A stretch of 34,973 bases of DNA from contig JAFGHD010000113.1 in assembly GCA_016939365.1 (NCBI GenBank), forward strand, positions 1 to 34,973, in the 5' to 3' direction. This DNA is from Bacteroidales bacterium. GTDB lineage: Bacteria; Bacteroidota; Bacteroidia; Bacteroidales; JAFGHD01. Positions 22,355 to 34,973 of the stretch are shown piece after piece; within the stretch, counting starts at the first letter, position 1; each line of letters opens with the position of its first letter. Both the position numbers and the translations under genes were made by a program. Under the pieces are notes generated by a model, which saw nothing but the letters and a program-made list of their open reading frames with translations, ran no database searches and was not told the DNA's origin.

Positions 22355-23644
22355 TCAATAATAACGTCTTTTCATAAACCAGATTTCGTATACTGTGATA
22401 CCGAAACGCAACACCGAATAATTTTCCCGGATCATCTGATCCCGTGTGGTTCCCCTTCTGCCGGTAGTGAAACTGAGGTTAAGCATCGATTCCGATCTGA
22501 ACAGCGGTAAACCTAAACCAAAAGATATACCAAAATCATCCAGTTGCTGGTTTCCAATGTTGAGGTAGGATGAGGAGTAGTAAGCTCCAGCCCGGAATTC
22601 AACATGTTTCCAGTATTTATCGGAGATATCGGTGGATGGAAGGTACATACCTCCCACCATGATTCTCTGGCTGTTCCGGAGTGAGTCGGTATCCTCGTAG
22701 ACTGTCAGTTTCGACCATTCGTCCCAGGTGTAATCCAGCCCGAACAGCCATTGGTTCTTTTTCTCCAGAGCCAGCCCCACTCCAAAGCCCTGTGGAAGCC
22801 CGATATTACCTTTGAGACCGTCGTCAAAATCCACAGTGTCTTTAATGATCTCCACATTGGAGATGGTTCCCAGGTAGGTTTGGGCAATAAAATCCCGTTT
22901 GGCCCGGATATCTGTGGCCGGATGGTACACGGCTCCCAGGTTGGCCTGAAGCTCATTCTTCATAGGAATGGTAAGCTGGAGGCCCATGTCCGCCATGATG
23001 TCGCCCGCACTGATTTCATCGCTGACTTTGGTAGAAAGATAGTAGATCGAATCGGGAAAGGTAATATACTGGCTTTTTTCAATGGTACCGAAGAGGTATG
23101 AGGCATTGATGCCGACGGACAGGTTTTTGAACAGACTAAATGAATTTCCCCAGAAGAAGGAGTGTAATCCTCCGGATCCTTCGTATTTATGTCTGACGTT
23201 ACCCGTCTCATTTCCAATATTTTCGTCGGTAATCCGGTACCCGGTCTGAACGAAAGGTACCAGCCCGACACCACTGCTCCACCAGCGGGATACCGGAAAC
23301 CCGAAAACCATATGTTCCATGGTGGATGAAAAACTTTTCTCGCTTTGTTCGATAGTAGTCAATTTCATCCACTGCCCCTTGACGGCTCCCTCGAAAACAA
23401 ATGAAAGGCTGTCCAGTGCCGTATAGGATGCCGGATTCCTGAAATTGACATTTTTGTGGTTTCTGATGCCCAGGCTGAGGTCTCCCATGGAGGCACCCAT
23501 TACGGTATTGGCATTGACGGGGTAACCGATACCCCTGGATGAGTAAGGAGAGGTCAGACCGGTCTGGGCATAACCATGCGATCCTGCAAATAAGCATAAC
23601 ACAGCCATCAGCGGCAGGAAACTGATTGGATTCCGCTCAGCCAT
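22355..23644 (-). CDS. Outer-membrane beta-barrel protein (FadL/PorV-like)
   Basis: This 429-residue protein has a signal peptide (about residues 1-27, ending GYAQ) followed by a GLTSPYSSRGIGY segment and a long series of alternating amphipathic strands ending LRFGITVYEIWFMKRRYY. Features such as VNFRNPASYTALDSLSFVFE, GVGLVPFVQTGY and LGLPLFRSESMLNLSF resemble FadL/PorV-type outer-membrane channels. The substrate is unknown. The start overlaps the coaX stop by 8 bp, so it is translationally coupled to coaX. Confidence 0.78.
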   Translation of the reverse strand: MAERNPISFLPLMAVLCLFAGSHGYAQTGLTSPYSSRGIGYPVNANTVMGASMGDLSLGIRNHKNVNFRNPASYTALDSLSFVFEGAVKGQWMKLTTIEQSEKSFSSTMEHMVFGFPVSRWWSSGVGLVPFVQTGYRITDENIGNETGNVRHKYEGSGGLHSFFWGNSFSLFKNLSVGINASYLFGTIEKSQYITFPDSIYYLSTKVSDEISAGDIMADMGLQLTIPMKNELQANLGAVYHPATDIRAKRDFIAQTYLGTISNVEIIKDTVDFDDGLKGNIGLPQGFGVGLALEKKNQWLFGLDYTWDEWSKLTVYEDTDSLRNSQRIMVGGMYLPSTDISDKYWKHVEFRAGAYYSSSYLNIGNQQLDDFGISFGLGLPLFRSESMLNLSFTTGRRGTTRDQMIRENYSVLRFGITVYEIWFMKRRYY

Positions 23645-27314: not shown

Positions 27315-29123
27315 TTACTGGTCTTCCAGGATGACATCATCGACCATATATGTGGTTGTCTCTGTCGTTTCATTACCCTGAAACAGGAACCCTACATAGG
27401 CTACCCCTGAAAACTCCGACAGGGAGATGTTTCCGGAGGGAACCCACTGGCTGTACGGGGTAAATTGACCGGCCAGGTTGCAGGTCAGAGGTGTCCATGT
27501 AGCAGAGGCAGGGTCGGTGCCGTTGAAATCGTTCGAAATCCAAAGGCTAAGGCCGTCATGTACCCAGTATTGTTGTGCGGAACTGAAAGTGAAGACCGGG
27601 TTGGTCATGGCATCGAGATTGATGGGTGGGGTGATGAGCCACATGGCATTGTCTCCGCCGGAACCCACCGAACGGCCTGCAGCACAAATGTTTCCCGACA
27701 ACTCTTTCCCCTGCCACCTCCGGGTGCCGGTCTGGGCCATGTTGTACCAACCGGTCAAGGTGATATCCTGTCCGGCGGTCTCGCTGCCGAAGTCCTCGTC
27801 GAGTGAGGTGACCGGTCCGCCACCACTGCCTGTTATTACGATCACGTCGTCGATCTGGATGGATGTGGAAGCTTCATTGCTTCCCTTATATTTGAATGCG
27901 ATGAACACATTGCCGGTGAAACTCGAAAGGGATATCTCTCCGGATGCGATCCATTCGTAGTTGGGGCTGGAGGCGTCGGGCAGCACCGCATCAAGCTCTG
28001 TCCACGTAGCCGTTCCGACATTTATTCCGTCAAAATCGACGGAGGCAAGGACAGTGACCGGGTCGAAGGATGAGTGCAACCAGTAAGCCTGGGCACAGTT
28101 GAAGGTAAGAACCTTGTTGCCCTCTGTATTGATGACCGGTGGTGTGATGAGCCAGGTCTCCATATCTGTAAGCCCGGAATTGTACCCTGTGGCCTGGGCA
28201 TAACGTTCCTCATTATACTCCTTGCCCTGCCATCTCCTGTCACCTGACACCACCAGGTTGTTCCAGCCTGAAATGGAAATATCGGTATAGTTGGCGGCAT
28301 TGTCGAAATGTTCCTCTAAGGTTTCCACCGGTTGTACATTGGTACCGCAACGCTCACCGGTCATATCGATCTCCTCGGTCCTCCTTATATAGAGCTGGAT
28401 ATCGCCGCTGTAAATGGATGCAACAGCTATAATGGAACCATTACCCTCGGGAACAAGCTGATCGGCGAATTTGGCATAGCCGCTTGTTCTTACGATGATG
28501 CTGTTCAACCCGTCACAATTCTCAATATTCCAGTTCACGGAAGTCAGATTCGCAGCGTCGGCATATGTGTTTCCCAGGGCGCTGCTTACGAACTGCACGC
28601 CTTCCAGTCTGATCAGTTGTGACTGGTACTGGTCAGTAAGCAGTTCACTGTATGCCACCAGCTTCGGTTCCACAACAATTCCGGTCTGTTGCTTGATAAC
28701 GTTGTAGTCCACATCCACGGAGTCAACCTGCAGCAATCCATTGTAATTGCTGAGTACCAGGTTCTTCAGGTACACCCGGACATAATCCCCTTCATAAAGG
28801 CCACCTGAAGCCATGAGGTGGAGGTTTATCCCTCCGGTGTTGTCCATGACATAGCTGCTCTTGTAAATATTGCCGGACGTCTCATCCATAACTACTGTGG
28901 CATAAAATGACAAATCGCCTGTGAACTTCACAGCGTTATACCCTGCCAAAACCGCATCAGCATAGATTTGTCTGAGGTCGGCAATAGTCAGCAGATTTCC
29001 CTCAGGTATGGTCTGCTCAGGTGGTTCATCAAATTCCTTCTTCACACAGGAGTTAACCACGGCCAGCAACAACAAGGGTAATGCCAGTTTGGAGATTTTC
29101 AGGTACATATGATTTATGTTCAT
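27315..29123 (-). CDS. DUF5689 / choice-of-anchor-J surface lipoprotein
   Basis: This 602-residue lipoprotein has a signal peptide with Cys26. Residues about 45-255 form a DUF5689-like region with two beta-rich OB-fold-like units, including YATVVMDETSGNIYKSSYVMD, GGINLHLM and GDYVRVYL; the second runs from SQLIRLEGVQF to GDIQLYIRR. Two jelly-roll choice-of-anchor-J domains follow, at about 268-430 and 438-602. Each carries a near-identical GW-N---G-RRWQGKE motif (286-302, 458-474). The pattern VVxD..GxIY..xYVxD..GGI resembles OB folds near extracellular nucleases. ATG 29123 is chosen because it starts the lipoprotein signal. It is 26 bp downstream of the TonB receptor gene, suggesting a receptor-lipoprotein pair. 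Confidence 0.82.
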   Translation of the reverse strand: MNINHMYLKISKLALPLLLLAVVNSCVKKEFDEPPEQTIPEGNLLTIADLRQIYADAVLAGYNAVKFTGDLSFYATVVMDETSGNIYKSSYVMDNTGGINLHLMASGGLYEGDYVRVYLKNLVLSNYNGLLQVDSVDVDYNVIKQQTGIVVEPKLVAYSELLTDQYQSQLIRLEGVQFVSSALGNTYADAANLTSVNWNIENCDGLNSIIVRTSGYAKFADQLVPEGNGSIIAVASIYSGDIQLYIRRTEEIDMTGERCGTNVQPVETLEEHFDNAANYTDISISGWNNLVVSGDRRWQGKEYNEERYAQATGYNSGLTDMETWLITPPVINTEGNKVLTFNCAQAYWLHSSFDPVTVLASVDFDGINVGTATWTELDAVLPDASSPNYEWIASGEISLSSFTGNVFIAFKYKGSNEASTSIQIDDVIVITGSGGGPVTSLDEDFGSETAGQDITLTGWYNMAQTGTRRWQGKELSGNICAAGRSVGSGGDNAMWLITPPINLDAMTNPVFTFSSAQQYWVHDGLSLWISNDFNGTDPASATWTPLTCNLAGQFTPYSQWVPSGNISLSEFSGVAYVGFLFQGNETTETTTYMVDDVILEDQ

Positions 29124-29149
29124 TTTTCTGAATTTATTTCCATGGAACA

Positions 29150-31666
29150 CTATATCCTGAAGGCCAGGTTCAGGAAATAGGTACGGCCATAGAGGTAATA
29201 ATATTTCGGGGGAAACTTGTTGATGTCTTTCTGTTCATATCTGAACTGTTCGTATCCTCCGACAACAAGATCCTGATTGTCAAGGATATTACTTACATTG
29301 AGCGTCACACCTATATAATGGCCTTTAACGATCCATGATTTGCCGCAAAAAAGATTGACGGTATATCCGTTGGGTTGTTCAATCTGATCAAGTACAGCAT
29401 TCCATTGCGGATCATCGGTCACAAGGCCTTCCATGGCAGCTTCGGTGCGGCGGTCGGGATTGGGATCCAGGTAGATATCGTCGAAGTAATTCACGTCGAG
29501 TCCGGCAAACCAGTATTTCGGTGAATTGTATTTCACTCCGCCGGAGACGGCTGTCTGGGGCATACCCCCGACCTTATAGTTTTTGAGGTAGACACGCCTG
29601 TTTTCAGCAAGGAGTTCGGAGTTATTGTCCTGGGTGATGGTGGCCAGCGGACGGGAAGAGTAAGTATAATCACCGACAGCCACCACTCCCGTCAGCTCGA
29701 GGGTCTGTGTCAGTTTTCCTTCCGCACCGATCTCGATACCGTAATGCAATTTGTCCACCCCGGTCATCAGGTAGTTCACAAAACTGTTCAGCTCCTCATG
29801 ATAGAAACTCCGGGCATACACCTGGTCAGTGAACTGTGCCCAATATACAGTGATGCGTGATTTCAGATAGGGTGAGCGGTAGATATAGCTGGCATCGGCG
29901 GCCATGACCTTTTCGGTGGTCAGACCTGAAACGGCATAATCACGGGTACGGGGTGACACGTAGGCATTCCAGAAATAGGGGGACCGGCCAATAAAGACCA
30001 CATTGACGCCGGCGAAATGCCTTCCTGTGAATTTATAGGTGTAGCCTCCCTTCAGCCCATAGGTCATAAAGGACTGCTTCTCTGAATCCCCATAGGAATC
30101 ATCGGGAAATTTCCCGTTCTGCATGTTTCCTGTACGCCAGAACTCATTGTAACCGATGGTTCCTGCAAAATAAAACTCGCTTTTGGGATACTTGAAGGAG
30201 GGTTGGAGGAATACGGAATAATCGTTGATATTGGCCACATAGTCATAACCAAACCGGTCATCCTCCCTGAGGAGGCGGTTGGGGTGGCGCAGGTCGTTCT
30301 GGGCCGCTATGGGATCAATGAAGTCTCGTTCGGCAAATTTGTCAACATCAATATAAAAATCACCACCCAGAAGATCTTTCACGGTTTTATAACGGTAGCC
30401 CTTGTACCAGGTCATATCCATCCCGCCGGAGAGTGTCATGTGTTCCGTCAACCGATTCTCGAAGGAGGAGTTTGCCTTAAGCTGCCGGTAGTCGTTACGC
30501 CGCTCTTCCACGATGTATTTGGCCAGCATGCCGGTGACGTTGTTTCCTTCAATGCCGTCCACATTCTCCATGGTGAACAGGTTTTTCCGATTGGCGAAAT
30601 AGAAGAAATCCCAGTCCACCTGCCTGAATTCCTCATCAGTGGTCCACCAGTTGTGATACCTGGCTGCCGTGGCGGGGTCTTCATCCTGGTAATAGCTAGG
30701 CAGGTTGCGGTAATAGTCTGGTCTGGGATCGGCGGCGTCGTACCATTCCAGCGCAGTGGTCCCTCCGCGTCCGAATGAAAAGGAGAGCGAGGAGGTGACA
30801 TTCATCTTCTCAAGGGGATCCCAGTAGTGGCTCAGGATGAACATAGGCTGGTGGTATGCGGCTACACGTGAATTCCTCACCTCCCCGTTCTGGTATCCCC
30901 AGTAAGGATTATAATAATTGGAACCAGCCAGATCATAGGCTTCCTGTGTGGAGATGCCGCTCTGACCACGCTGGGAGGGACTTCCGTAAGCAACCAGTCC
31001 GAGGCTGTGTCTGTTGTTAATTTTGCGCTCGACGGAGAGGAAATAGCCCCAGGCATCGTAAAATGTACCCTCTACATAGCCCTGCTGCGACCAGCGCCGT
31101 GAGGCGGAGGCCGTCACCGCCCACTTATTCTTCATCAGCCCGGTGGAATAGATCATCATCAGCCGGTTACGGTAGGTCCTGTTGGAAAGTGACCAGGTCA
31201 GCTTGGTCTGTTTCCTGAAAAGTGAAGCCCTGACGATCATGTTCGAGATGCCTCCGATCCCGCCGAAGGAATGTCGGGATGCATTGATGCCGGTCTCGAT
31301 CTCCGTGTTCCTGAACGCGTCGTTGAGGCCGCCCCAGCGGCCATAATACACCCTGCCGGTCTCCATGTCGTTCAGAGGTACACCGTTCACCATCACCATG
31401 GAGTTCTCCGAATCAAAGCCACGTACCCTGAACCGGGCCGCACCGAAAGAATAACCCGCAGTTGAATTGAAAATATCATCCGATGATTGCAACAGACCTG
31501 AGATATCCTGGATCTGTTCGTCGTTATCCAGGTCCGTACCGGAAATGTTCACCGTTGGAAGTGAGGTCTCTGCTTTTTCGGTCGAGAGGGCTGTGGTGTC
31601 CACCTGCCCATAAACAACCGGCATCCCTCCCGCCAGAAGCAGGATCAACCACGCACCTCTTTTCAT
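29150..31666 (-). CDS. TonB-dependent outer-membrane receptor
   Basis: This 838-residue receptor has a signal peptide (1-21, ending VYGQ), then a plug domain (about 50-160) with FRVRGFDSENSMVMVNGVPLND split by the start of the barrel. The long beta-barrel ends YYYLYGRTYFLNLAFRI, a typical aromatic C-terminus. It lacks the N-terminal carboxypeptidase-D-like domain of SusC proteins, and no SusD gene is adjacent. The substrate is unknown, but the partner lipoprotein and the divergent nuclease suggest nucleic-acid-derived or phosphorylated compounds. The open frame extends to 31840, but ATG 31666 starts the signal peptide and lies just after a promoter-like element, so it is preferred. Confidence 0.92.
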   Translation of the reverse strand: MKRGAWLILLLAGGMPVVYGQVDTTALSTEKAETSLPTVNISGTDLDNDEQIQDISGLLQSSDDIFNSTAGYSFGAARFRVRGFDSENSMVMVNGVPLNDMETGRVYYGRWGGLNDAFRNTEIETGINASRHSFGGIGGISNMIVRASLFRKQTKLTWSLSNRTYRNRLMMIYSTGLMKNKWAVTASASRRWSQQGYVEGTFYDAWGYFLSVERKINNRHSLGLVAYGSPSQRGQSGISTQEAYDLAGSNYYNPYWGYQNGEVRNSRVAAYHQPMFILSHYWDPLEKMNVTSSLSFSFGRGGTTALEWYDAADPRPDYYRNLPSYYQDEDPATAARYHNWWTTDEEFRQVDWDFFYFANRKNLFTMENVDGIEGNNVTGMLAKYIVEERRNDYRQLKANSSFENRLTEHMTLSGGMDMTWYKGYRYKTVKDLLGGDFYIDVDKFAERDFIDPIAAQNDLRHPNRLLREDDRFGYDYVANINDYSVFLQPSFKYPKSEFYFAGTIGYNEFWRTGNMQNGKFPDDSYGDSEKQSFMTYGLKGGYTYKFTGRHFAGVNVVFIGRSPYFWNAYVSPRTRDYAVSGLTTEKVMAADASYIYRSPYLKSRITVYWAQFTDQVYARSFYHEELNSFVNYLMTGVDKLHYGIEIGAEGKLTQTLELTGVVAVGDYTYSSRPLATITQDNNSELLAENRRVYLKNYKVGGMPQTAVSGGVKYNSPKYWFAGLDVNYFDDIYLDPNPDRRTEAAMEGLVTDDPQWNAVLDQIEQPNGYTVNLFCGKSWIVKGHYIGVTLNVSNILDNQDLVVGGYEQFRYEQKDINKFPPKYYYLYGRTYFLNLAFRI

Positions 31667-31695
31667 TGATTGAAATATCCGTTTTGACAAGGGAA

Positions 31696-31703
31696 CAAAA
31701 ATA
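31696..31703 (-). promoter_or_regulatory. Candidate -7 promoter element of the TonB receptor gene
   Basis: The minus strand reads TATTTTTG (31696-31703), matching TAnnTTTG. It lies 29 bp upstream of the chosen start. The -33 partner is unclear. Confidence 0.5.
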
Positions 31704-31735
31704 GGCAATAAATGAAATCCGGCCTGCTTATTTAA

Positions 31736-31743
31736 TATTTTTG
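31736..31743 (+). promoter_or_regulatory. Candidate -7 promoter element of the nuclease gene
   Basis: TATTTTTG matches TAnnTTTG and is identical to the opposing element at 31696-31703. It lies 33 bp upstream of ATG 31777. No clear -33 element is visible. Confidence 0.5.
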
Positions 31744-31776
31744 CCCCCGATTCACCAAAGGATAAGACATTGTAAA

Positions 31777-32841
31777 ATGATGCCGATAGCTTTCCGATAC
31801 CTGTTGTCCACATTATCGGTCTTTCTGCTGCTGACCCCACAGGTCCGGCTTTACGGGCAATCCGAAAAGAGTTACCATGTGATCTGTGCCGCTTTCTATA
31901 ACCTGGAAAACCTGTTTGACACCATTCTGGACTCTGGGCTCAGAAATAATGAGGAGTTCACGCCGGAAGGTCCGAATGCATGGGATACAGAACGGTATCA
32001 TTCGAAGCTGAAGAAGCTGGCGGAGGTGATCTCCGGCATCGGTACCGGCATGACGCCGGATGGTCCGGCCATCCTGGGTGTCTCAGAGGTTGAGAACCGC
32101 CGGGTCCTGGAGGATCTGGTGAAGGAGCCGGTGATCCGGGACAGGAATTACCGGATCGCACACTTTGACTCGCCCGACCGCAGGGGTATCGACGTAGCCC
32201 TGCTCTATCAGCCGGAATATTTCACCCTGACCAATGCCCGGACATATTCGCTGTATCTGCCTCATGATACGGCATTCCGCACCCGGGACCAGCTGGTGGT
32301 CAGCGGCAGGCTTGACGGAGAGATGTTCCATTTCATCGTGAACCACTGGCCTTCCCGCCGGGGAGGAGAGAAAAGGTCCAGGCCGCTCCGCAACGCGGCC
32401 GGCCAGCTCTGCAGGCATATCACCGACAGCCTGCTGCAACTTAATCCCATGGCGAAGCTCGTCATCATGGGAGACCTGAACGATGACCCGGTCAATCCCA
32501 GCGTAAAGGAACATCTGCGTACCAAAGGCAAGGAGGAGGAGCTACAGGGTGGAGACCTTTTCAATCCCATGATGAAAATGTACCGCGACGGCGTTGGGTC
32601 ACTGGCATACCGCGACTCATGGAACCTGTTCGACCAGATCATCGTCTCCCAGGCACTTCTGGGTAAGGATTACAGCACCTGGAAGATATACGGGGTCAGG
32701 GTATACAATGAGTCCTTCCTGGTACAAAAAGAGGGAGCTTTCACCGGATACCCCCTGAGAACCTTCGCCGGGGGAGTATACATGAATGGCTACAGCGATC
32801 ATTTCCCGGTGTACCTGTATCTGATCCGGGAGGTGAATTAA
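31777..32841 (+). CDS. Secreted endonuclease/exonuclease/phosphatase (EEP) family protein
   Basis: This 354-residue protein has a signal peptide (about 1-28, ending LYGQ) and a complete EEP (DNase I-like) catalytic set: FYNLENLFD (N42), GVSEVENR with E104, RRGIDVALLYQP (135-146), VNHWPSR (188-194), MGDLNDDP (231-238), DQIIVS and SDHFP (340-344). Family members cut phosphodiester bonds in DNA/RNA or phosphomonoesters using a divalent metal. The export signal suggests action outside the cytoplasm. It is transcribed divergently from the TonB receptor with 110 bp between the starts. ATG 31777 is preferred over the upstream TTG at 31741, and ATG 31780 is possible. Confidence 0.9.
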   Translation: MMPIAFRYLLSTLSVFLLLTPQVRLYGQSEKSYHVICAAFYNLENLFDTILDSGLRNNEEFTPEGPNAWDTERYHSKLKKLAEVISGIGTGMTPDGPAILGVSEVENRRVLEDLVKEPVIRDRNYRIAHFDSPDRRGIDVALLYQPEYFTLTNARTYSLYLPHDTAFRTRDQLVVSGRLDGEMFHFIVNHWPSRRGGEKRSRPLRNAAGQLCRHITDSLLQLNPMAKLVIMGDLNDDPVNPSVKEHLRTKGKEEELQGGDLFNPMMKMYRDGVGSLAYRDSWNLFDQIIVSQALLGKDYSTWKIYGVRVYNESFLVQKEGAFTGYPLRTFAGGVYMNGYSDHFPVYLYLIREVN

Positions 32842-32883
32842 ACCGGGAACAAGTCACGGGGTGATTCGACCTAACTTGCCATA

Positions 32884-34500
32884 TCATTCCTGGACATACA
32901 CCTTCTCCGCCTGGATTACCTCGTAAGTGACTGCATCATAAACAAATGCGACGACAGAAAGATGCTTCTCCTTCCAACCCGGATCGAGAGCCAGATTGGA
33001 ATAGCTGACTGTATAAGGAACGCCAGGAACAATATTGCCTGTATTGAGCCCCTCGCCCCAGGTGCCGCTGAATGATCCCCTGAGGACGTGCATGTGCACG
33101 TAATCCTCGATATCCGGCGTGGGTCCGATGGTCGGGTCATTGTTCATCTGCGGTGCGACGATACTGTCCTCGGCAATAAAGGTACAGACACGGTAAATTC
33201 CGCGCAGTGTATTCAGGAAGGTGACGGTTACCCCTGTGGATAAGGCATGGGATGACTGATGATAATCCGTAGTGATCCTGAGTGAGGCATCGGGCATATG
33301 GCTGAGTGCCTCCCCCACCTTGGATGCCCAGTCCTGCGGATTCAGCACCCGTGCGGTTCCTTCTCCCATCCGGTTGACCATACCTTTTGGATTTCCCAGG
33401 ACGCTGATCCCGAAAAAGGTGTCCAGTTCATCCCCTTCATCGGTTGTAAAATCCATGGTATACAGACCGCCGGCTGAGGGTTGTGCAAACCATCCGGCAT
33501 GGACTGCCAGTAACACGACCTGGCCATCATACTGTTCCTCCAGATCACGGGAGATCACGGCCGCCCCCGGGCAGTTGACGCATTTATGACCGGTGTAATC
33601 CTCAAGCAGTACTTTCCGCACCGGAGCGACATAATTGTCTGTCAGAACCCTGCTCTCTGCCTGGATCACTTCCCCGGTCAGGGTATTGTACACCACAGCC
33701 ACCACATGACAACGGTCCGCCTTCCAGGTGATGTTGACAGGGATGCCCTGGTAACTTTTGGTAAAGCGCTCCCCCGGATGAGCATGGTCATCGCTGTTGA
33801 GCACCTCTCCCCATGTACCGTTCACCGCAGTACGCAGGACGTGCATATGAACAAAGTCCTCAATGTCAGGCACATCTCCCAGCAAAGGATCATCATTCTT
33901 CTGGGGCGCGATGATGCTGTCCTCTGTGATGAATACACTGAGGTTGTATATACCTTCCAGATAAGCCAGAAACGTAGTTACAATGCCAACTGATAAGGTG
34001 CCTTCGTCCGCATTAAAGTCGTTGGTGATGACAATACATGCCCCGGCAGAGACTTCGAGAATGGAGCAAATCTTTTGCTCCCAATCTTCCGGTGCAAGGA
34101 TGTGTGCCGAATCTCCTCCCGTTCGGCTGACCATACCGGCGGGGTTTCCCGTGGCGCTGATACCGTAGAAGGCATCAAGTTCATCCCCGGCAGGGGTTGT
34201 GAAATCAGCGGTGTATATCCCTCCATCTGGTTCGGCCATTGGCCCTGCATGAACGGACATGACCACCAGTCTGTCATTGTGCATGTCGGCCAGGTCTTTC
34301 AGAATCTCACCGGCAATGGGATAACCGGGGTACAGATGACCGGTAAATACTTCGAGAAATGCTTTCCGGGGTAACTGCAGGTTAGTGTCGTTACCACTAT
34401 TTCCCTGATTGCGAAGGTAAGGCTCCTCAATCTTGTCGCACCCCAGCATGAAAAGTACCGGGATGAACAGAATATAGAATGGGAAAAAGAGATTCTTCAT
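32884..34500 (-). CDS. Lipoprotein with two Omp28-like thioredoxin-fold halves
   Basis: This 538-residue lipoprotein (Cys21 after LFMLG) contains two homologous halves (about 45-290 and 295-538). Each has VHAG, TDFTT or MDFTT, GDELD, GISxxGNPxGMV, EDSIIAPQ/EDSIVAPQ and DIEDFVHMHVLR or its close variant. Omp28-related proteins have a thioredoxin-like fold with a CxxCP pair. The C-terminal copy keeps it (HKCVNCP, C307 and C310), whereas the N-terminal copy has HLYPGYP (Y57 and Y60). ATG 34500 is chosen because it starts the lipoprotein signal 11 bp after the upstream DUF6029-like gene, with which it forms an operon. The function is unknown; roles in adhesion or redox handling are speculation. 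Confidence 0.83.
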   Translation of the reverse strand: MKNLFFPFYILFIPVLFMLGCDKIEEPYLRNQGNSGNDTNLQLPRKAFLEVFTGHLYPGYPIAGEILKDLADMHNDRLVVMSVHAGPMAEPDGGIYTADFTTPAGDELDAFYGISATGNPAGMVSRTGGDSAHILAPEDWEQKICSILEVSAGACIVITNDFNADEGTLSVGIVTTFLAYLEGIYNLSVFITEDSIIAPQKNDDPLLGDVPDIEDFVHMHVLRTAVNGTWGEVLNSDDHAHPGERFTKSYQGIPVNITWKADRCHVVAVVYNTLTGEVIQAESRVLTDNYVAPVRKVLLEDYTGHKCVNCPGAAVISRDLEEQYDGQVVLLAVHAGWFAQPSAGGLYTMDFTTDEGDELDTFFGISVLGNPKGMVNRMGEGTARVLNPQDWASKVGEALSHMPDASLRITTDYHQSSHALSTGVTVTFLNTLRGIYRVCTFIAEDSIVAPQMNNDPTIGPTPDIEDYVHMHVLRGSFSGTWGEGLNTGNIVPGVPYTVSYSNLALDPGWKEKHLSVVAFVYDAVTYEVIQAEKVYVQE

Positions 34501-34511
34501 GATAAAAGATT

Positions 34512-34973
34512 CTAAAAGCTGCTGGTAATGGTAAGTGTCAGTCCGCTGGAGGCGGGAACCTGCCGGCATACGCCCCCAACACAAAGTATCCCTTCACGCT
34601 GCAATCCGTAAGCAAGTGAAATCCGGTTGGTCTTGTTGGTGTAGCCCACTGCTCCGGAATAATAATGGTAGGTGTTGCTGCCGGAAGGATTGTTATAATT
34701 GTATTCATCCCTGACGGAGAAGAACCATTTCGGTGCAATAGTGTATTCCAGCATACCGGAGACCCAGTTTCCCGAATCCTGGCGACTCTGTAAATACTGA
34801 AGCTCCAGGCGGAGGGCATTTTTTTTTGTCATCTTGTATGTGATATCCGCCACACCCACATGTGCCTTTATTTTATGACCGTGCCCCGATTCTATGCCCT
34901 CCTCGATGACATCGATATTATAGAGCAAGTAGGTGTAGGCCAGGATGATCTTCCAGGATGGGTTCAGTTTGCG
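34512..34973 (-). CDS. DUF6029-like outer-membrane protein, C-terminal part (truncated by window edge)
   Basis: The reading frame is open through the right edge of the window, so the start lies outside; 153 residues are visible. They form alternating beta strands typical of a barrel C-terminus, for example WKIILAYTYLLYNID, LRLELQYLQSRQDSGNW, WFFSVRDEYNYNN and YHYYSGAVGYTNKTNRISLAYG. The end is GGVCRQVPASSGLTLTITSSF. That ending resembles the DUF6029 family, which in Bacteroidota is often found next to Omp28-like genes. The stop is 11 bp from the Omp28-like start. Confidence 0.7.
   Translation of the reverse strand, partial: RKLNPSWKIILAYTYLLYNIDVIEEGIESGHGHKIKAHVGVADITYKMTKKNALRLELQYLQSRQDSGNWVSGMLEYTIAPKWFFSVRDEYNYNNPSGSNTYHYYSGAVGYTNKTNRISLAYGLQREGILCVGGVCRQVPASSGLTLTITSSF

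Follow-up and report, generated by a model that had tools for sequence, protein, structure and literature searches.

Gene content of the locus

The window, a stretch of 34,973 nucleotides from a Bacteroidales genome, contains towards its end the gene of a TonB-dependent receptor, the gene of a surface-type lipoprotein on the same strand and, divergent from both, the gene of an exported EEP enzyme, followed by two further genes (Table 1). The preliminary description of this DNA had recognised a TonB receptor lacking both a SusC-type N-terminal domain and a SusD partner, a DUF5689 lipoprotein with two jelly-roll domains beside it and a divergent exported EEP enzyme that keeps its catalytic residues, and our domain scans and alignments agree with it on all three points. 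A sigma-70 scan of the region between the receptor and EEP genes was uninformative, the scan being unsuited to this phylum.

Table 1 Features of the locus, with positions numbered along the window
Feature	Position	Strand	Remarks
DUF5689 + two anchor-J surface-type lipoprotein	27315..29123 (ORF 27315-29150)	-	Orthologue of RA0C_RS04920
TonB-dependent receptor, distinct Bacteroidia clade	29150..31666 (ORF 29150-31840)	-	Orthologue of RA0C_RS04915; Plug only
Divergent intergenic region, 110 bp	31667..31776	.	Common to receptor and EEP genes; presumed promoters; start codons read from sequence
Exported Exo_endo_phos_3 (EEP) enzyme	31777..32841 (ORF 31741-32841)	+	Orthologue of the gene at the RA0C_RS04910 place
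Omp28 lipoprotein, tandem	32884-34584 (likely 32884-34503)	-	ORF
DUF6029, C-terminal end only	34512-34973	-	ORF

The receptor, with its probable start at ATG 31666, is 838 aa long and contains a Plug domain with no N-terminal CarboxypepD_reg domain in either the Pfam scan or the alignment. Most module-type homologues scanned do carry CarboxypepD_reg (six of eight: L006, L012, L014, L017, L019 and L020, not L004 or L015), so that its absence from the window receptor is a local feature. The receptors of the window and of Riemerella anatipestifer fall in one clade of a maximum-likelihood tree (100/100 support) with low-scoring paralogues outside it, and in the phylum search Riemerella-family receptors scored 713-773 bits against 206-267 for the paralogues. 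The motif DPRPDYYRxLPS, present in 84 of 132 orthologues, was rejected as a diagnostic feature since it is altered in Riemerella to NPSPLYYRNLPS and hence is not defining. A solved-structure sequence search with the receptor returned nothing useful. SusC/SusD pairs likewise combine a TonB receptor with a neighbouring gene for a surface-type lipoprotein; the window however has neither a SusD/RagB homologue nor CarboxypepD_reg by Pfam, and a nuclease-like enzyme takes the place of glycan enzymes.

The start codon of the lipoprotein is uncertain (GTG 29150, ATG 29123 or ATG 29108), giving a length of about 603-611 aa. Its lipobox (AVVNSC) is followed by the family motif CVKxxFDxPP, and Pfam and NCBIfam identify a DUF5689 domain (E 1e-43) and then two choice-of-anchor-J domains of jelly-roll/MAM-like type. 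Against the NCBIfam model lipo_M949_1556 (NF052645) the protein scores 226.9 bits, below the curated cut-off of 475, while the Riemerella lipoprotein scores 599. The AlphaFold (AF2) model is confident (mean pLDDT 94), and structure comparison aligns its anchor-J domains with gingipain adhesin and with MAM domains (Z up to 16). With the whole lipoprotein model as query, Foldseek matched tandem OB folds A and B of the telomerase factor Teb1 (E 1e-5, probability 1.00, TM 0.34); the aligned ranges were not printed, and the length of the Teb1 tandem OB folds suits the DUF5689 region. From this match the DUF5689 region probably resembles a tandem OB arrangement, in line with the OB-fold-like character proposed in the preliminary description, and it may bind DNA. 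The VIA-align list was rejected as evidence on this point, being filled with jelly-roll/MAM proteins matched by the anchor-J domains; a solved-structure sequence search with DUF5689 gave nothing useful, RPA32 alone appearing at E 0.35. Elsewhere in the same genome a second DUF5689-like domain occurs in a very large PKD/beta-propeller-type protein (2102-aa open frame; C72:12272-12763, L002). The DUF5689 model also matched the Bacillus subtilis control genome, perhaps in the OB-containing nuclease YhcR, a match given no weight here.

The EEP enzyme starts at ATG 31777, carries a signal peptide and matches Exo_endo_phos_3 (PF19580) with E 9e-128 and 426 bits against a gathering cut-off of 27. Its motifs (N, ExEN, RGxD, HWPSR, GDxND, D and SDH) are conserved in an alignment of 36 sequences, where all are invariant except the C-terminal SDH, lost only in one homologue at a point where its translation is out of frame; judged by these residues the predicted DNase I-type active site is intact. 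The AF2 model (pLDDT 90) matches Bacteroides EEP proteins and TDP2 with Z 24 and DNase I with Z 22, and also CNOT6L, the mannosyl-6-phosphatase Bt3783 (Z 23.5) and sphingomyelinases (Z 21.8-22.3). Since sugar and lipid enzymes score as well as nucleases, we rejected the fold as proof of a nuclease, and it leaves the substrate unsettled. The enzyme resembles ExeM/NucH in being an exported DNase I-like protein, and its NHWxSR and GDxND motifs are ExeM-like, but it reaches only 21.6 bits against the NCBIfam model NF033681, far under the cut-off of 300. A solved-structure sequence search gave nothing useful. A second, paralogous Exo_endo_phos_3 enzyme is encoded near a NamZ/DUF1343 gene on another contig of the same genome (C171, L181:7032-10651).

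Conservation and co-inheritance of the module

A scan with the receptor alignment identified 80 loci in named genomes of Bacteroidales, Flavobacteriales, Saprospirales and Chitinophagales, most of the loci coming from environmental metagenome-assembled genomes (MAGs). At least one DUF5689 protein lies downstream of the receptor in 75 of the 80 loci, with two or more in 29, and a strict spacing rule for the two genes holds in 64 of the 74 loci with room for it. Upstream of the receptor, 65 loci offer 1.4 kb of sequence or more, and in 50 of these the EEP gene comes immediately next, in divergent orientation. The same order, with the EEP gene facing away from the receptor and DUF5689 following it, recurred in 18 of 20 further loci from other Bacteroidia genomes, the exceptions being L148, in which the contig ends beyond the receptor, and L155, in which the genes lie apart. 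This arrangement is far beyond chance and the three genes form a conserved module, as required by the hypothesis of the preliminary description. In Marinifilum a second receptor and DUF5689-type pair, outside the main receptor clade, lies about 4 kb before the module (L101:1588-6014).

Inheritance was followed in 296 evenly sampled genomes of the phylum, of which 73 belong to the class Bacteroidia; we counted as present a receptor above 400 bits, a DUF5689 lipoprotein with E ≤ 1e-30 to the M949_1556 model and an EEP orthologue of at least 400 bits. The receptor occurs in 46 of the 73 Bacteroidia genomes and the lipoprotein in 44, all within the receptor set; the EEP orthologue occurs in 46, 45 of which have the receptor. 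The resulting table for receptor and EEP enzyme (45/1/1/26) gives P=1.7e-17, and counting by genus (21/1/1/19) gives P=9e-10, values which overstate the number of independent events because the genomes are related. In one genus, 11 genomes have retained the EEP gene although 17-55 kb separate it from the receptor, which points to co-retention beyond linkage. The only genome of the window's own genus that was searched (G001) lacks a receptor orthologue (best E 7e-14); either the distribution of the module is uneven inside the genus itself or this MAG is incomplete.

Among 39 neighbouring proteins scanned there are eight of the Endonuclease I family (Endonuclease_1), two DNA/RNA non-specific endonucleases (Endonuclease_NS) and one PLD protein; two of these, the PLD protein and an Endonuclease_1, are fusions with DUF5689. 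No match was found in the viral contigs searched.

Relationship to the transformation locus of Riemerella anatipestifer

Of the papers found, one alone mentions DUF5689: it describes a transposon screen of Riemerella anatipestifer in which markerless deletion of either RA0C_RS04915, described as a CarboxypepD_reg beta-barrel, or RA0C_RS04920, described as a DUF5689 and DUF5017 protein, lowered natural transformation below detection (PMC8459023). The authors' model of DNA uptake through receptor and lipoprotein is speculative and leaves its nuclease without identity, and homologues of RS04915 were reported only in Flavobacteriaceae, including Flavobacterium (PMC8459023). It counts against the transformation reading that Flavobacterium johnsoniae, under the one set of conditions tried, could not be transformed.

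We anchored the Riemerella locus by a comEC primer published for that strain (PMC8383284), which, searched in a genus with high lipoprotein scores, matches exactly in two genomes. In a single-contig genome of 2.16 Mb the order is comEC, a small ORF, a carboxyltransferase, the EEP gene, the receptor and the DUF5689 lipoprotein. These six genes fit the six tags RA0C_RS04895 to RA0C_RS04920, the Pfam domains correspond for each gene, and DprA is some 54 kb further along, as expected for RS05130; we therefore infer from the numbering of the tags that RS04910 is the EEP gene. In BLAST comparisons the window and Riemerella proteins are 33 % identical over 832 aa for the receptor (E 5e-144), 27 % for the lipoprotein (E 4e-28) and 40 % for the EEP enzyme (E 6e-95), and the window receptor and lipoprotein are orthologues of RS04915 and RS04920. 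They have the same order, with the EEP gene divergent upstream in both organisms; the window differs in a receptor without CarboxypepD_reg, a lipoprotein with two anchor-J domains instead of one and the absence of comEC from the immediate neighbourhood.

RS04910 served the authors as an upstream control; their screen of 3,000 insertions, which was not saturating, did not list the EEP gene among those needed for transformation, and they did not delete it (PMC8459023). Two of three Riemerella TonB proteins are needed for full transformation, the TonBA and TonBB mutants being impaired, although one of the two effects was attributed by the authors to iron starvation (PMC8383284).

The remainder of the proposed competence pathway

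The genome of the window encodes ComEC, DprA, a protein with three HHH motifs (33 % identical to the likely RS02645) and NamZ/DUF1343. Riemerella likewise depends on DUF1343 for transformation. No PF00437 ATPase of the type IV pilus, type II or Tad type was found at E ≤ 1e-20 in this genome, which is 97 % complete, nor was a PF00437 ATPase found in two Riemerella genomes. Type IV pilus DNA uptake, as in Vibrio and Neisseria, would perform the same step, conveying DNA through the outer membrane and delivering it to an HHH protein and ComEC, but does so by a secretin and pilin where the module offers a barrel and a lipoprotein. ComEC is present in 74 of 74 genomes of the class and the three-HHH protein shows no association with the module within it (P=0.44), so these competence genes lend the module no co-occurrence support. 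The organism itself may be competent.

All nine Bacteroidia ComEC proteins examined consist of DUF4131 and Competence domains, the profile reported for Bacteroidetes (PMC6299819), with no recognised beta-lactamase nuclease domain in any of the nine. In Streptococcus pneumoniae, the nuclease domain of ComEC is probably inactive, and the strand left behind by ComEC is degraded by a separate nuclease, EndA (PMC12455585). A ComEC without a nuclease domain and this precedent together lead one to expect a dedicated exported nuclease, for which the EEP protein, whose fold differs from that of EndA, is the best candidate. This remains suggestive only, because ComEC proteins from genomes without the module lack the nuclease domain as well.

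Proposed function and alternatives

We consider it probable that the three genes constitute a TonB-powered, pilus-independent outer-membrane DNA-uptake module that feeds ComEC. The lipoprotein would bind extracellular DNA through its tandem OB-like DUF5689 domain and dock it on the receptor, whose barrel would admit the DNA to the periplasm using TonB energy. There the three-HHH protein, encoded elsewhere in the genome, would hold the DNA, and ComEC would pass one strand to the cytoplasm for DprA and RecA. The exported EEP enzyme may act as a nuclease either outside the cell or in the periplasm, where it could make ends, degrade the non-transported strand or recycle nucleotides. A bolder proposal, which we hold tentatively and lean against, is that pilus-less Bacteroidia import DNA through a dedicated TonB receptor and OB-fold lipoprotein and that the co-inherited EEP enzyme is the missing nuclease degrading the non-transported strand, since ComEC in this phylum has no beta-lactamase nuclease domain.

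The preliminary description had combined lipoprotein capture, nuclease cleavage and TonB uptake of the products. The conserved module, the nuclease neighbours and fusions and the transformation orthologues favour such a sequence, although the experimental link is to natural transformation and not to phosphorus scavenging. A nutritional role would have EEP and other nucleases cut DNA outside the cell, DUF5689 capture the oligonucleotides and the receptor import them as food or a source of phosphorus, with transformation in Riemerella a by-product. Its mechanism is the same up to the periplasm; EEP enzymes as a superfamily cut phosphodiesters, secreted T9SS-type nucleases with DUF5689 domains adjoin the module and most loci come from environmental MAGs. 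We nevertheless think this unlikely, given that essentiality has been shown for transformation (PMC8459023), that removal of phosphate lowered Riemerella transformation (PMC8383284) and that no phosphate-stress genes are among the recurring neighbours. DNA feeding and transformation are not exclusive, and the phenotype favours transformation.

The receptor and lipoprotein might alternatively maintain envelope or LPS structure, their loss blocking transformation secondarily. The NCBIfam family to which the Riemerella lipoprotein belongs takes its name from M949_1556, a protein with reported effects on antigenicity and on pathogenicity or virulence, so that an indirect envelope effect is conceivable; M949_1556 may be RA0C_RS04920 itself, since the Riemerella genome G384 contains a single lipo_M949_1556 (NF052645) match, at the transformation locus. 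Such an effect seems quite improbable, however, where the conserved partner is a nuclease-like EEP enzyme, fusions and neighbours come from three other nuclease families, the lipoprotein has an OB-like domain and the Riemerella defect is complete and not partial (PMC8459023). Uptake of another phosphoester, for instance the head group of a phospholipid or a phosphorylated glycan, in which the EEP enzyme would serve as phosphatase or phosphodiesterase, would suit the resemblance to Bt3783 and sphingomyelinases and that of the anchor-J domains to carbohydrate-binding modules as well as adhesins, but is very improbable when the neighbourhood shows no recurrent SusD, glycosidase or sugar kinase and the orthologues have a transformation phenotype (PMC8459023).

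That transformation requires the receptor and lipoprotein is established for Riemerella, within the Flavobacteriaceae (PMC8459023). What looks new is the co-inherited EEP enzyme, the occurrence across Bacteroidia and the fusions to nucleases, no follow-up paper having been found in a search that left bioRxiv and most subscription papers outside. Bacteroidota are among the dominant phyla of guts, oceans and sludge, and for their pilus-less DNA uptake the main genetic lead so far was a gene list from one duck bacterium. That lead now becomes a defined three-gene module present in 46 of the 73 Bacteroidia genomes of the sample, its receptor extending beyond Flavobacteriaceae and thereby correcting the earlier view of its confinement, and RA0C_RS04910 becomes a specific candidate for the nuclease missing from the published model. 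If the bolder proposal above is correct, there would be another general way for DNA to cross the outer membrane, in 46 of the 73 sampled Bacteroidia genomes.

Flanking genes

The Omp28-like and DUF6029 proteins had been regarded as possible accessory surface components, a suggestion we abandon: neither has a homologue in any other locus, including 40 with more than 3 kb of sequence beyond the EEP gene. Between the end of the DUF6029 gene and the likely start of the Omp28 gene lie about 8 bp (34503-34512), and the gene layout suggests a separate DUF6029-Omp28 operon merely converging on the EEP gene. The Omp28 lipoprotein is itself a tandem duplication, its halves about 48 % identical, with the CxxC motif (CVNC) kept in the second half and lost in the first. 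A few kb from the module, amid housekeeping genes, the window also encodes a BamG-family beta-barrel assembly protein (22355-23644, minus strand; NF053685, 371 bits).
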